Of a DNA stretch of 35,786 bases, positions 14,999 to 34,276 are shown piece by piece. Each line of letters starts with the position of its first letter. Within the stretch, counting starts at the first letter, position 1. A program made the translations under genes and the position numbers. The notes under the pieces were generated by a model, which saw nothing but the letters and a program-made list of their open reading frames with translations, did not search any database and was not told the DNA's origin. This DNA comes from an uncultured Bacteroidales bacterium. GTDB lineage: Bacteria > Bacteroidota > Bacteroidia > Bacteroidales > Bacteroidaceae. The stretch is from positions 1 to 35,786 of the forward strand of contig CADBXS010000034.1 of assembly GCA_902798705.1 (NCBI GenBank), in the 5' to 3' direction.

Positions 14999-15187
14999 AT
15001 GGGAAAAAAACTCAATGGAAAGCTTTTCCGTGTAAATGGAAAACCTTTCCGTGTAAACGGAGAACTTTTCCGCGTACACGGAAAACTTTTCCATTTAGAT
15101 TCTTCCTCATGCGAAGGAAGTTTTTTAGCCATCATTGGCATGTTTGGGTGGGTGTTGTGTCGATTTAAAGAGCCTAACCTACAATAA
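14999..15187 (+). CDS. possible small ORF over the 21-bp repeat (62 aa, doubtful)
   Basis: An ATG at 14999 opens 62 codons. The first half translates the 21-bp repeat as four 7-residue units (NGKLFRV, NGKPFRV, NGELFRV, HGKLFHL). The end is hydrophobic (GSFLAIIGMFGWVLCRF). Differences between units are not concentrated at third positions, so selection on protein is not evident. There is no good start signal. The repeat unit being 21 bases keeps any reading frame open by arithmetic alone. I regard it as more likely non-coding. Confidence 0.2.
   Translation: MGKKLNGKLFRVNGKPFRVNGELFRVHGKLFHLDSSSCEGSFLAIIGMFGWVLCRFKEPNLQ
15014..15097. repeat. 21-bp tandem repeat, four units, each palindromic
   Basis: Four consecutive 21-base units (15014, 15035, 15056 and 15077), consensus AAYGGAAAACTTTTCCGTGTA split as AAYGGAAAAC plus TTTTCCGTGTA. 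Each unit contains a palindromic GGAAA..TTTCC core. The units differ from one another at 2-5 positions. It lies in the 326-base gap between the M20 and OPT genes, which otherwise holds only the heptamer array and an A/T-rich leader. Confidence 0.9.
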
Positions 15188-22269: not shown

Positions 22270-22305
22270 CATTTCTTAAAACAATTCACACTCCATTCTT
22301 TGTAT

Positions 22306-22324
22306 GCTTCGGTTTTGCCGAAGC
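22306..22324 (+). promoter_or_regulatory. hairpin in the dgt leader
   Basis: GCTTCGG (22306-22312) pairs with CCGAAGC (22318-22324) around a 5-nt loop, and CTTTCTTC follows. ATGAAGA-type heptamers on the other strand (22328-22345) fill the space to the ATG. It may be an attenuator or mRNA stabiliser. Confidence 0.45.
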
Positions 22325-22347
22325 CTTTCTTCATTCTTCATTTTCTT

Positions 22348-23667
22348 ATGAACTGGCAACAACTCATTTCCAACAAACGCCTCGGACAAGAACATCTGCA
22401 CATTGAGCGCAAGGACGACCGCACAGAATTTAAGCGCGACCACGACCGTCTCATCTTCTCGGCTCCCTTCCGCCGACTCCAGAACAAGACACAGGTGTTT
22501 CCCCTCCCCGGCAGCATCTTTGTGCACAACCGACTGACGCACTCGCTCGAAGTGTCCAGCGTGGGACGGTCGTTGGGTGACGACGTGTCGATTCGCCTCC
22601 TTCAACTGCATCCCGAACTCGCCTCATCCCACATCAGCGAGTGCGGAGCCATCGTCAGTGCAGCTTGTCTGGCGCACGACATGGGCAATCCGCCTTTCGG
22701 ACATAGCGGAGAACGAGCCATTGCCACGTATTTCAGTGAGGGAGAAGGACAAAAGTATCGCTCGATGATGACCGATGAGGAATGGAACGACATCATCCAC
22801 TTCGACGGCAACGCCAACGCCTTTCGCCTGCTCGTTCATCAGTTCAAGGGACGTCGTCCAGGCGGGTTCGTCCTCACCTACTCCACCCTTGCCTCCATCG
22901 TGAAGTATCCTTACCCTGCCACGCTGGCTGGCAAGAAGCAGAAGTTCGGTTTCTTCTGCACGGAAATGGAAACCTACCAAACCATCGCCAAGGAATTGGG
23001 CATCACCCAACATGCCGACGGTTCCTTCGCCCGCTATCCATTGGTCTATCTTGTGGAAGCAGCCGACGACATCTGCTACGAAATCATGGACATCGAGGAT
23101 GCCCACAAACTCAAGATTCTCAGCACAAAAGAAACCACAGACATCCTCCTGCAGTTCTGCGACCCAGCACGAAGAGAGCACATCCTCAGCGTTCTCAACA
23201 GCGTCGATGATGCCAACGAGCGCATCGTCTATCTCCGTTCCTGCGCCATTGGCGAACTGGAGCGCGAATGCGTCAGCACCTTCGTCCAGAACGAACAAGC
23301 CATCCTCAACGGCACATTCCAAGGTTCCTTAGTGAAGAACCTCTGTCCTCGTCTGCGCGAAGCATACGCCAACAGTGCCGAAATTTCCGCACGACGCATC
23401 TATCGCTACAAGGACGTTGTCGATATAGAACTGGCTGGTTATCGCATCATCTACACCCTCATCGACCTCTTCACCGAAGCCGCCATGCATCCCGACCGCG
23501 CCTACTCCCAACTGCTGCTCAACCGCATCAGCCAGCAGTACGAAGTGGATGCCCCCGATGCCTACCATCGCATCATGGCTATCCTCGACTACATCAGCGG
23601 CATGACCGACGTCTTCGCCCTCGACCTCTACCGCAAAATCAATGGCGAAAGCCTGCCAATGATTTAA
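22348..23667 (+). CDS. dgt: deoxyguanosinetriphosphate triphosphohydrolase, HD family
   Basis: 439 residues from the ATG at 22348 (MNWQQLISNKRLG). Upstream in-frame codons to 22267 run through the leader hairpin and -7 box, so they are not used. HD-domain metal ligands are visible: H65 in NRLTHSLEV, H110-D111 in CLAHDMGNPPFGHSGE and a later Asp in VEAADDICYEIMDIED. The FSAPFRRLQNKTQVFP segment is characteristic of dGTPases. It cleaves dGTP to deoxyguanosine and triphosphate, lowering dNTP pools. It lies back to back with dut, another dNTP enzyme. The gap of 485 bases to the next gene holds only repeats. Confidence 0.96.
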   Translation: MNWQQLISNKRLGQEHLHIERKDDRTEFKRDHDRLIFSAPFRRLQNKTQVFPLPGSIFVHNRLTHSLEVSSVGRSLGDDVSIRLLQLHPELASSHISECGAIVSAACLAHDMGNPPFGHSGERAIATYFSEGEGQKYRSMMTDEEWNDIIHFDGNANAFRLLVHQFKGRRPGGFVLTYSTLASIVKYPYPATLAGKKQKFGFFCTEMETYQTIAKELGITQHADGSFARYPLVYLVEAADDICYEIMDIEDAHKLKILSTKETTDILLQFCDPARREHILSVLNSVDDANERIVYLRSCAIGELERECVSTFVQNEQAILNGTFQGSLVKNLCPRLREAYANSAEISARRIYRYKDVVDIELAGYRIIYTLIDLFTEAAMHPDRAYSQLLLNRISQQYEVDAPDAYHRIMAILDYISGMTDVFALDLYRKINGESLPMI

Positions 23668-23769: not shown

Positions 23770-23862
23770 CGAATCGCTATTGGGGATAGGCTGAAGCGAA
23801 TTTGGGGATTGACTGAACCGAATTAGGGGATTGGCTGAAGCGAATTTGGGGATTGACTGAAG
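23770..23862 (+). repeat. 22-bp tandem repeat, four units
   Basis: The units begin with CGAAT and contain GGGGATTGACTGAAG or close variants. The last three are 22 bases each (23797, 23819, 23841); the first (23770-23796) has five extra bases. The array lies directly upstream of the copy-A core repeat. Confidence 0.88.
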
Positions 23863-23876
23863 CGTTTCTTTGATTT

Positions 23877-23965
23877 AACTAGTTGCCCGAAGGTTCGTTA
23901 TCGACTTGGCGAGCCTTCGGCGTTGCGATGGCGAAGGTTCGCCGTGTCAACGTTGAGCGCTCGAC
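23877..23965 (+). repeat. dispersed repeat, copy A (core)
   Basis: About 88 bases aligned with copy B at 34021-34107 with only scattered substitutions and one indel. It contains a hairpin with an 11-bp stem (23887-23897 with 23910-23920, one G-T pair, 12-nt loop) and a GGCGAA-GG-TTCGCC palindrome at 23930-23943. Similarity resumes at about 23970-23996 (AGTAAAAACAAAGGAATGGC). No transposase or terminal inverted repeat is seen. Confidence 0.88.
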
Positions 23966-23985
23966 ATTTCAGTAAAAACAAAGGA

Positions 23986-24117
23986 ATGGCTCAGTTCAAT
24001 CGAAGGAAAGGTTCTGCACAATCGAAAGAGAACGTCAGCAAAAGGAAACGAATCATCACAAAAAAGGATATTGTTGCTTTTTTTCAAGAAATTATTGATA
24101 TCTTTGCCAAAGATTAA
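23986..24117 (+). CDS. possible small basic ORF (43 aa, doubtful)
   Basis: The ATG at 23986 follows AAAGGA and opens 43 codons, very Lys/Arg-rich, ending in a helical-looking FFQEIIDIFAKD. The beginning lies in the dispersed repeat and the end overlaps a TAnnTTTG box at 24099-24106 for the next gene. No family recognised. Chance is a real possibility. Confidence 0.2.
   Translation: MAQFNRRKGSAQSKENVSKRKRIITKKDIVAFFQEIIDIFAKD
24099..24106 (+). promoter_or_regulatory. -7 box of the 5'-nucleotidase gene
   Basis: TATCTTTG fits TAnnTTTG, 46 bases before the ATG at 24153, with a T-rich stretch at about 24077-24084 in the -33 region. Confidence 0.55.
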
Positions 24118-33804: not shown

Positions 33805-33908
33805 TGAAAAAAATATACAGAAAGCAAATCTTTACACCAGTTGGTGCAAAGTTGAAATAGGGAAATAGGGGCATCAGCATGGGCGTTAGCTTCTCAATCC
33901 GGATGGCT

Positions 33909-33938
33909 TCCCCTCCCCTTTGGGGGAGTTGGAGGGGG
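33909..33938. repeat. GC-rich C-run/G-run inverted element
   Basis: CCCCTCCCC followed by TTTGGGGGAG and then GGAGGGGG; the C-rich part can pair with either G-rich part. Similar C/G-run elements are frequent between genes in Bacteroidetes. It borders copy B of the dispersed repeat. Confidence 0.55.
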
Positions 33939-33939
33939 C

Positions 33940-34165
33940 TGTTTTAGGGGATTATCTGAGGTACATGTGGGAATTGACTGAGCCAACTCTTTGAATTGGC
34001 TTACGCCGAGCTGAAGGTTCAACTAGTTGCCGAAGGTTCGTCATCGACTTGGCGAGCCTTCGGCGTGGCGATGGCGAAGGTTCGCTATAAATACGTTGAG
34101 GGCTCGGCGTTTGGCTTACGCCGAACTAAAGATTCGGTAAAAGCGAAGGAATGATTCAGTACATT
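33940..34165 (+). repeat. dispersed repeat, copy B with flanking modules
   Basis: The core at 34021-34107 aligns with copy A (23877-23965). It has a 12-bp stem (34029-34040 with 34053-34064, one G-T pair, 12-nt loop). Unlike copy A, it is flanked by two near-identical modules starting TTGGCTTACGCCGA (33996-34020 and 34111-34135). Two degraded 22-bp units (GGGGATTATCTGAG, GGGAATTGACTGAG) lie upstream, and GTAAAAGCGAAGGAATGATT downstream matches copy A. It occupies most of the 519-base gap between the secreted-protein and HTH genes. Confidence 0.87.
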
Positions 34166-34276
34166 CAGAGGTGTCTTTGGCTTTGATAGTTTCGCCTCGG
34201 CATAGTGAAAACAGTTTTCCCTCTTTTCTCGGCTCGCTCATAAATGGGAATGTAGAGACTGCAATGCTTTATGCCA

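Follow-up and report, generated by a model that had tools for sequence, protein, structure and literature searches.

The window analysed here, the whole 35,786-nt stretch of contig CADBXS010000034.1 from an uncultured Bacteroidales bacterium, carries two copies of a dispersed, noncoding element built of short palindromes at a pitch of exactly 22 bp, with conserved CGA and TCG arms, variable linkers and mixed orientation relative to the neighbouring genes. At several sites shared between related genomes the palindromes have been switched, and some congeners carry other palindromes at the same pitch. We tentatively read these elements as phased operator arrays for a putative fast-evolving dimeric DNA-binding protein; from these patterns we infer the protein, its cooperative loading, recombination between arrays and any influence on chromosome or transcription.

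Architecture of the two copies and their core

As the original prediction had it, the two copies lie at 23877-23965 and 34021-34107 in the same orientation, with a core identity of 86%. These coordinates are too narrow for the whole element, which spans about 23771-24054 and about 33942-34175 (ends by eye). The core consists of four CGA-RSSY-TCG palindromes (U1 to U4) at an exact 22-bp pitch within degenerate 22-bp units, and the units of the two sides face each other across an axis where ACT meets AGT. The parts are as follows.

23771-23880, + strand: left array, five degenerate 22-bp units of type GAAGCGAATTTGGGGATTGACT (repeat spacing 22, 22, 22; TRF period 22 at 23780-23864)
23877-23884, no strand: axis AACTAGTT, where left units (end ACT) meet right units (start AGT) (direct reading; alignment columns invariant or nearly so)
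23888-23897, + strand: palindrome U1, CGAAGGTTCG (CGA/TCG columns invariant, 81 copies)
23910-23919, + strand: palindrome U2, CGAGCCTTCG, 22 bp after U1 (CGA/TCG columns invariant, 81 copies)
23932-23941, + strand: palindrome U3, CGAAGGTTCG, 22 bp after U2 (one exception in 81 copies, at the last base)
23954-23963, + strand: palindrome U4, TGAGCGCTCG, 22 bp after U3 (family members begin with T or C)
23971-24054, - strand: right array, 22-bp units in opposite orientation, AGTAAAAACAAAGGAATGGCTC type (direct reading, end by eye; TRF period 22 at 23981-24026)
33942-34024, + strand: second copy, left array including an extra palindromic unit at 33996-34020 (ends by eye)
34021-34028, no strand: second copy, AACTAGTT axis (direct reading; alignment)
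34031-34040, + strand: second copy, palindrome U1 (direct reading; alignment)
34053-34062, + strand: second copy, palindrome U2 (direct reading; alignment)
34075-34084, + strand: second copy, palindrome U3 (direct reading; alignment)
34097-34106, + strand: second copy, palindrome U4, TGAGGGCTCG (direct reading; alignment)
34107-34175, - strand: second copy, right array including an extra palindromic unit at 34111-34135 (right end by eye)

The extra units of the second copy belong to another palindromic type (around TTGGCTTACGCCGAGCTAAAGGTTC) that occurs inside some arrays. The core alignment comprised 81 copies, 64 from the window's own genome (G000), 10 from G011 and 7 from G002; seven loci that matched the core only in part were excluded. 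Its invariant columns are mainly the CGA and TCG arms, with U1 at columns 12-21, U2 at 34-43, U3 at 56-65 and U4 at 78-87. Since 33 copies had been picked by a pattern that includes the U3 stretch (at most three mismatches), U1 and U2 provide the fairer test of conservation, and their arms were invariant in 81/81 copies. The U3 arms were likewise invariant but for one cell, and U4 began with T or C, with one exception at its A. The 12-bp linkers between palindromes were variable. The inner four bases follow R-SS-Y, with SS being GG, CC or CG; a GC centre was found in 0 of 303 distinct phased sites, though the screen permitted it. Beyond the core, degenerate 22-bp units extend on both sides in opposite orientations about the AACTAGTT axis. 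An extra base lies between axis and U1 in 36/81 copies, so the palindromes do not keep strict phase with the left array. The mutual information computed across all phased units was discarded as dominated by the fixed unit order, U1-U4 having their own linkers.

Pfam searches of the four neighbour genes, one of which had no match, agreed with the earlier statement that no transposase adjoins either copy. The first copy is flanked by an HD-domain phosphohydrolase (Pfam HD and HD_assoc), which we take to be 'dgt', and a 5'-nucleotidase-like protein, and the second by a protein without Pfam match and a small HTH_3 protein. A short stretch that opens the HD-domain ORF (window 22302-22348), probably upstream of the true start, matches several further places in G002 at 91-95%. 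Immediately left of the second copy, window 33899-33945 holds another dispersed repeat, of the CCGGATGGCTTCCCCTCCCC... type; G002 and G005 have many stretches like it, G010 and G004 a few. A tandem repeat with a period of 21 bp (3.6 units, TRF) is located at window 15017-15092.

The 22-bp pitch in carrier genomes and across the family

When the window's genome (3.31 Mb, 195 contigs, 82% complete) was searched with the cores, as the original prediction had proposed, at least 41 matches were obtained (40 of 89 candidates scored), far beyond chance. Among 41 genomes (the window's own, 12 congeners and 28 others), matches at E ≤ 0.001 were present in three, G000, G011 and G002, which are 81-89% complete; the congener genomes are drafts, 56-89% complete. 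The abundant, lineage-specific and mostly intergenic family that had been suggested is real, with the 64 aligned G000 copies and matches in 3/41 genomes. Whole-genome searches for pairs of sites at 22 bp gave 216 pairs in G000, 315 in G002, 134 in G011 and 2 in G010, and none in the nine other congeners. Pairs at 21 or 23 bp numbered 0 in all 13 genomes, a clean spacing control. At least one 22-bp pair was found in 10/399 genomes family-wide and in 1/80 genomes of a phylum sample, namely the window's own. A control with the reversed pattern, which matched in 6/399 genomes, was not clean because both genomes with multiple matches carry another palindrome at 22 bp.

Among strict sites in 107 fetched loci, which were partly chosen by motif, the spacings were 22 (200), 44 (114), 66 (32) and 88 bp (1), with no other spacing up to 120 bp, 33 bp included. 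Relaxing the inner bases brought out a few further spacings in these 107 loci, each at most six times. In 231 kb of G000, 44/45 sites fell in 22-phased arrays, 13 in all (six three-site, six four-site and one two-site), and in 199 kb of G002 the figures were 40/42 sites and 11 arrays. At 31 pairs per 13 arrays, the 216 pairs of G000 correspond to about 90 arrays with at least two strict sites; the estimate for G002 is about 120. The G000 and G002 contigs used for density counts, the lag scan and the private-palindrome counts had been picked once copies were already known on them, which inflates the densities: extrapolating 56 arrays per Mb gives 185 for G000, versus about 90 from the genome-wide pair count.

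The 22-bp period itself reaches further than the element. A lag scan of five congeners (748 kb) found period 22 in 58/82 arrays with periods not a multiple of 3, in other sequences. In 80 family loci (1,463 kb), taken as the surroundings of one conserved gene in named genomes, the same scan gave 34/57 such arrays, in 23/80 loci, and block shuffles of these loci yielded no array at all. The controls gave 0 in 217 kb of same-order outgroups, 1 in 311 kb of other Bacteroidota and 0 in 200 kb of E. coli; when the threshold is relaxed, one 22-bp array turns up in the same-order outgroups too. By TRF, period 22 accounted for 44 family arrays (30 per Mb) of 164 with a period not a multiple of 3, 60 in the congeners (80 per Mb), 1 in 527 kb of outgroups and 0 in E. 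coli (family vs outgroups, conditional binomial p = 1.7e-5). In these scans 22 bp was the commonest tandem period in the 80 family loci and not in the smaller outgroup sample. Other TRF periods in the family were 14 (36 arrays), 15 (36), 12 (31) and 21 bp (29), versus 44 at 22 bp, and the exact-repeat spectrum peaked at 14 bp (40) and 21 bp (23) beside 22 bp (29); the 14- and 21-bp peaks may be multiples of 7-bp repeats.

The arrays that share this period differ in sequence. TRF consensus units of length 22 fell into 35 sequence clusters for 38 family units and into 28 for 55 congener units. Although ORFs of at least 150 aa cover 91% of the sequence, 25/34 lag-scan arrays lay outside them. In 92 arrays the median was four units, neighbouring units were 73% identical on average, and neither an 11-bp sub-period nor a right-end continuation shifted by 1-4 bp was detected in a scan that favours slip-free arrays. 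Exact 10-mer repeats at 33 and 55 bp numbered 2 and 0 in the family set and 0 and 0 in the congeners. Helical phase alone was rejected as the cause, given the missing 11-bp signal and the rarity of these 10-mer repeats. The units were significantly palindromic (p ≤ 0.01) in 1/34 arrays of the 80 loci and 9/58 of the congeners, and palindromicity was dropped as a universal feature of 22-bp arrays. G004 is an exception among the congeners, with no 22-bp array in 110 kb. Isolate loci with 22-bp arrays came from Paraprevotella clara, P. xylaniphila, Segatella maculosa and Prevotella sp. khp7, and of three genomes of one to three contigs, two (G017 and G020, not G021) carried two copies each. With isolates and few-contig genomes carrying arrays whose units differ among themselves, a metagenome-assembly artefact is unlikely.

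Several congeners have palindromes of their own, read from the same stretches in which they were counted. The clearest is GAAGGCCTTC in G007, with 55 sites in 200 kb, 55/55 of them phased at 22/44/66 bp, and 0 to 1 occurrences in each of six other congeners sampled; 49/55 sites lie inside called ORFs, which are presumably spurious. CAAGYRCTTG in G008 was phased at 6/11 sites, with further occurrences in G010 (7), G005 (4) and G000 (3). In G010, GTCYGCRGAC was phased at 9/11 and GAGCGCTC at 12/14 sites; two of its contigs, C78 and C203, had first drawn attention through CGAGCGCTCG pairs. G005 carries CGTGCACG (8/12 phased; further spacings 63, 41 and 19). G169 (100% complete), which belongs to another genus, came up through the reversed-pattern control: at 21 places it carries two GCTYSSRAGC palindromes spaced by 22 bp, mostly of the form GCTCGCGAGC.

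The linker between the paired GCTYSSRAGC palindromes of G169 is nearly constant (L346, L348), and G084 has nine such pairs 22 bp apart at six places (L347, L349). A second, unrelated 22-bp tandem repeat (GTCCCATAGTTGTATGAGTGCC type) adjoins the element in the left flanks of L019, L022 and L023. In Segatella maculosa (L287, 4527-4843 and 11634-11741), 44-bp arrays have 22-bp sub-units around CAATATNNCC-like motifs.

Shared sites and gene context

At the window's first site, G002 has an array of the same layout with CGAGGGCTCG-type palindromes in place of those of G000. Like palindrome switches between species were found at L009/L036, L034/L039 and L067, and at L067 the flanking 22-bp units also differ in concert. 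The same palindrome type was kept at L013/L047 and L018/L049 (G000 and G011) and at L007/L032. The CGAA share of half-sites was 0.66 in G000, 0.62 in G011 (fetched loci only) and 0.11 in G002. A 22-base gap was present in 2/5 orthologous pairs (L009/L036 and L034/L039), along with shorter gaps, the alignment of the diverged flanks being uncertain. At L063 the element is present in G000 and absent from G002, with no clean target duplication by eye. Of four G000 sites with flanks matched on both sides in G002 (three not selected for a shared element, plus L009), three were occupied in G002 and one was empty.

L007/L032 stands apart, with 94-99% identity between G000 and G002 over about 2.5 kb of flanks, versus 84-93% at other shared sites. 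Its high identity and G000-type palindromes perhaps reflect recent transfer or a binning error.

Gene context was tabulated for 87 copies in three genomes, some of them orthologous, with mechanical ORF calls and loci below 30 bits left out. A called gene was present on both sides in 71/87 copies (tandem 41, divergent 19, convergent 11), and 16/87 had no called neighbour on one side. Among the 41 tandem contexts the element had the orientation of the genes in 24 and the opposite one in 17. Fourteen of the 87 copies overlapped a picked ORF of at least 90 aa, two of these being long (478 aa, L028; 416 aa, L037). The largest cluster of recurring neighbour genes consists of short ORFs around the repeats themselves. 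Searches of phage (50,697) and plasmid (72,556) records gave no element match at E ≤ 1e-5, which leaves carriage by phages or plasmids unsupported.

Candidate mechanisms and known relatives

In the operator-array reading, the dispersed noncoding element would act as double-stranded DNA. Its short palindromes, usually three or four, keep an exact 22-bp pitch within a more extended series of 22-bp units, and each is a candidate binding site of a putative dimeric protein of this lineage. The 22-bp pitch, two helical turns, would put the dimers on one face of the DNA and allow cooperative loading, and a loaded array may serve as an intergenic anchor, boundary or silencer. Arrays would be homogenised within species, perhaps via recombination between them. 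Palindromic half-sites at a constant helical pitch, as expected of such arrays, are present. Short dyads that stay conserved while their linkers are free to vary, that occur on either strand at one fixed pitch and that change in concert are a better match to the sites of a dimeric protein than to an RNA. Several points weigh against operator arrays. Sites three turns apart (33 bp) would be in phase just as well, yet no strict spacing has this length, an absence that favours a 22-bp duplication unit over helical phase by itself; most of the family's 22-bp arrays show no significant palindromicity; the extra base in 36/81 copies loosens the phase with the left array; and, besides the lack of arrays in the G004 sample, the other private palindromes are less clean than that of G007.

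The strict sites at 22 and never at 33 bp suggest that arrays also grow by a 22-bp unit, and it is quite possible that a mutational process lies behind the arrays: it would duplicate 22-bp intergenic stretches whatever their sequence, with no need of a binding protein, and slippage, unequal exchange and gene conversion would later spread and homogenise some units. Such a process would fit the rank of 22 bp as the commonest period family-wide in both scans (34/57 and 44/164), the spread of the family's 38 consensus units over 35 sequence clusters, the 92 arrays without 11-bp sub-period or shifted right-end continuation, and the 22-base gap in two of the five orthologous pairs. It leaves unexplained the invariance of CGA/TCG amid drifting linkers and the missing GC centre, and phase is held though neighbouring units are only 73% identical, slipped arrays being harder to detect by the scan. 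We place the binding-array reading slightly ahead of a pure mutational ruler; both may be true.

A MITE-like mobile element, one of the readings originally offered, is unlikely. MITEs are likewise short and dispersed with inverted halves: the copies are dispersed and mostly intergenic, their left and right arrays are inverted, and L063 is occupied in G000 and empty in G002. Against this reading, no common sharp ends were seen, there is no known parent IS, no clean target duplication was visible by eye at L063, the single presence/absence pair, three of the four G000 sites with matched flanks were occupied in G002, and phage and plasmid records held no match.

The original prediction centred on a strong hairpin. 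A structured RNA or transcription terminator with the hairpin as its functional part is improbable, and this reading was set aside after folding, RNAalifold, shuffles and pair counts. In its favour, the + strand of both copies folded better than all shuffles (z = -3.46 and -7.67; 0/200 shuffles fold as well), and the G-T stem pair noted earlier was confirmed at columns 18-37. The hairpin pairs U1 with U2; what had been taken as a 12-nt loop is the 12-bp linker between these two palindromes, and the RNA fold of both copies has 15 pairs and a 6-nt loop, with a bulge in the stem of the first copy. The claim that the hairpin is the conserved part found no support. Pairs 16-39 and 17-38 were broken in 19 and 18 of 81 copies, and 6/14 stem pairs, all of them in palindrome arms, never vary. 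The helix showed little covariation overall: compared with shuffles, stem pairs with changes on both sides numbered 5 vs 5.9 and further pair types 13 vs a mean of 14.8. Three measures were above the shuffled mean, namely the percentage paired (reached by 21/500 shuffles), cells with double changes (37 vs 30.3; 67/500) and the stem covariation score (0.154 vs 0.139; 25/500). Sliding the stem partner lowers most measures, as expected when a structure comes from the consensus. The covariation check proposed at the outset was divided, with the double-change pairs below the shuffled mean and pairs 15-40 and 23-32 of the stem above chance. Shuffles were also exceeded near U3 by pairs 52-69, 53-68 and 54-67, and by 40-59, which joins U2 to U3. 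Base pairing may therefore have a weak role. RNAalifold gave a covariation term of only -0.73 kcal/mol on 31 copies, the orientation of the element relative to genes is mixed, and Rfam had no match at gathering score in the window except a tRNA elsewhere. We conclude that the hairpin is mainly a by-product of tandem palindromes in alternating orientation.

REP, BIME and REPIN repeats are species-specific intergenic palindromes in mosaics, often with more than 100 copies, a form that the 22-bp arrays share. Mobilisation of such repeats by a RAYT (TnpA-REP) transposase, the REP-like reading of the original prediction, is very improbable here and was rejected as unsupported: PF01797 was not found in two of the three carriers (0 in G000 and G011, 1 in G002; drafts, 81-89% complete), 7/13 congeners have it, most without the window's element, neither REP tag is conserved in the core (GTAG in 1/81 core copies, CGTC at columns 20-23 in 27/81), and the pitch of the arrays is fixed. 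Iteron arrays of plasmid origins are tandem protein-binding units of about two helical turns, a likeness to the 22-bp arrays, which differ in occupying tens to more than 100 loci per genome. A serine-type recombinase for which the central GG/CC would set the direction was a further candidate considered.

The nearest published relatives are PINSR by biology and BrickBuilt by form. PINSR of Prevotella intermedia is described as noncoding, intergenic and lineage-specific; two strains hold 177 and 184 copies that lack terminal inverted repeats and have about three quarters of their sites in common, and no function is assigned to it (PMC4755523). The 22-bp arrays are likewise noncoding, intergenic and lineage-specific in the Prevotella group; compared by description, PINSR differs as one 188-bp repeat, and section 3.4 of its source mentions no 22-bp pitch (PMC4755523). 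BrickBuilt of Porphyromonas gingivalis is an intergenic minisatellite of 23 nt, about two helical turns, described as one sequence family of 19 copies with IS5-like terminal repeats (both ends in 4/19); 22- and 41-nt tandem repeats are also mentioned for strain W83 (PMC4596501). Like the window's arrays it repeats in tandem between genes, spacer-free, with a unit of about 22-23 bp; its period is 23 rather than 22 bp, and its consensus bears no likeness by eye to these units (PMC4596501). In the open-licence literature covered (titles and abstract starts, with subscription journals largely outside), no common 22-bp pitch is described, and the portion of PMC4060949 considered here holds nothing on a 22-bp period.

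For the Bacteroidaceae (GTDB) as a whole we raise a more doubtful proposal: one putative machinery with a fixed 22-bp ruler would build and keep intergenic arrays, its specificity turning over fast while lineages amplify private palindromes (CGARSSYTCG, GAAGGCCTTC, CAAGYRCTTG, GTCYGCRGAC, GCTCGCGAGC) and the geometry stays constant. If true, this pairing of stable geometry with shifting specificity is the pattern predicted for a genome-marking or boundary system caught up in an arms race. Intergenic repeats of Prevotella and Porphyromonas such as PINSR and BrickBuilt have been described group by group, with no linking rule found in the literature covered; a pitch of 22 bp common to them, combined with turnover of sequence, would supply that rule and open function to tests. 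If a mutational ruler lies behind the arrays, there would be a 22-bp duplication process not described before. If a protein does, common gut bacteria would own a chromosome-wide DNA-binding system that is invisible to sequence similarity alone.
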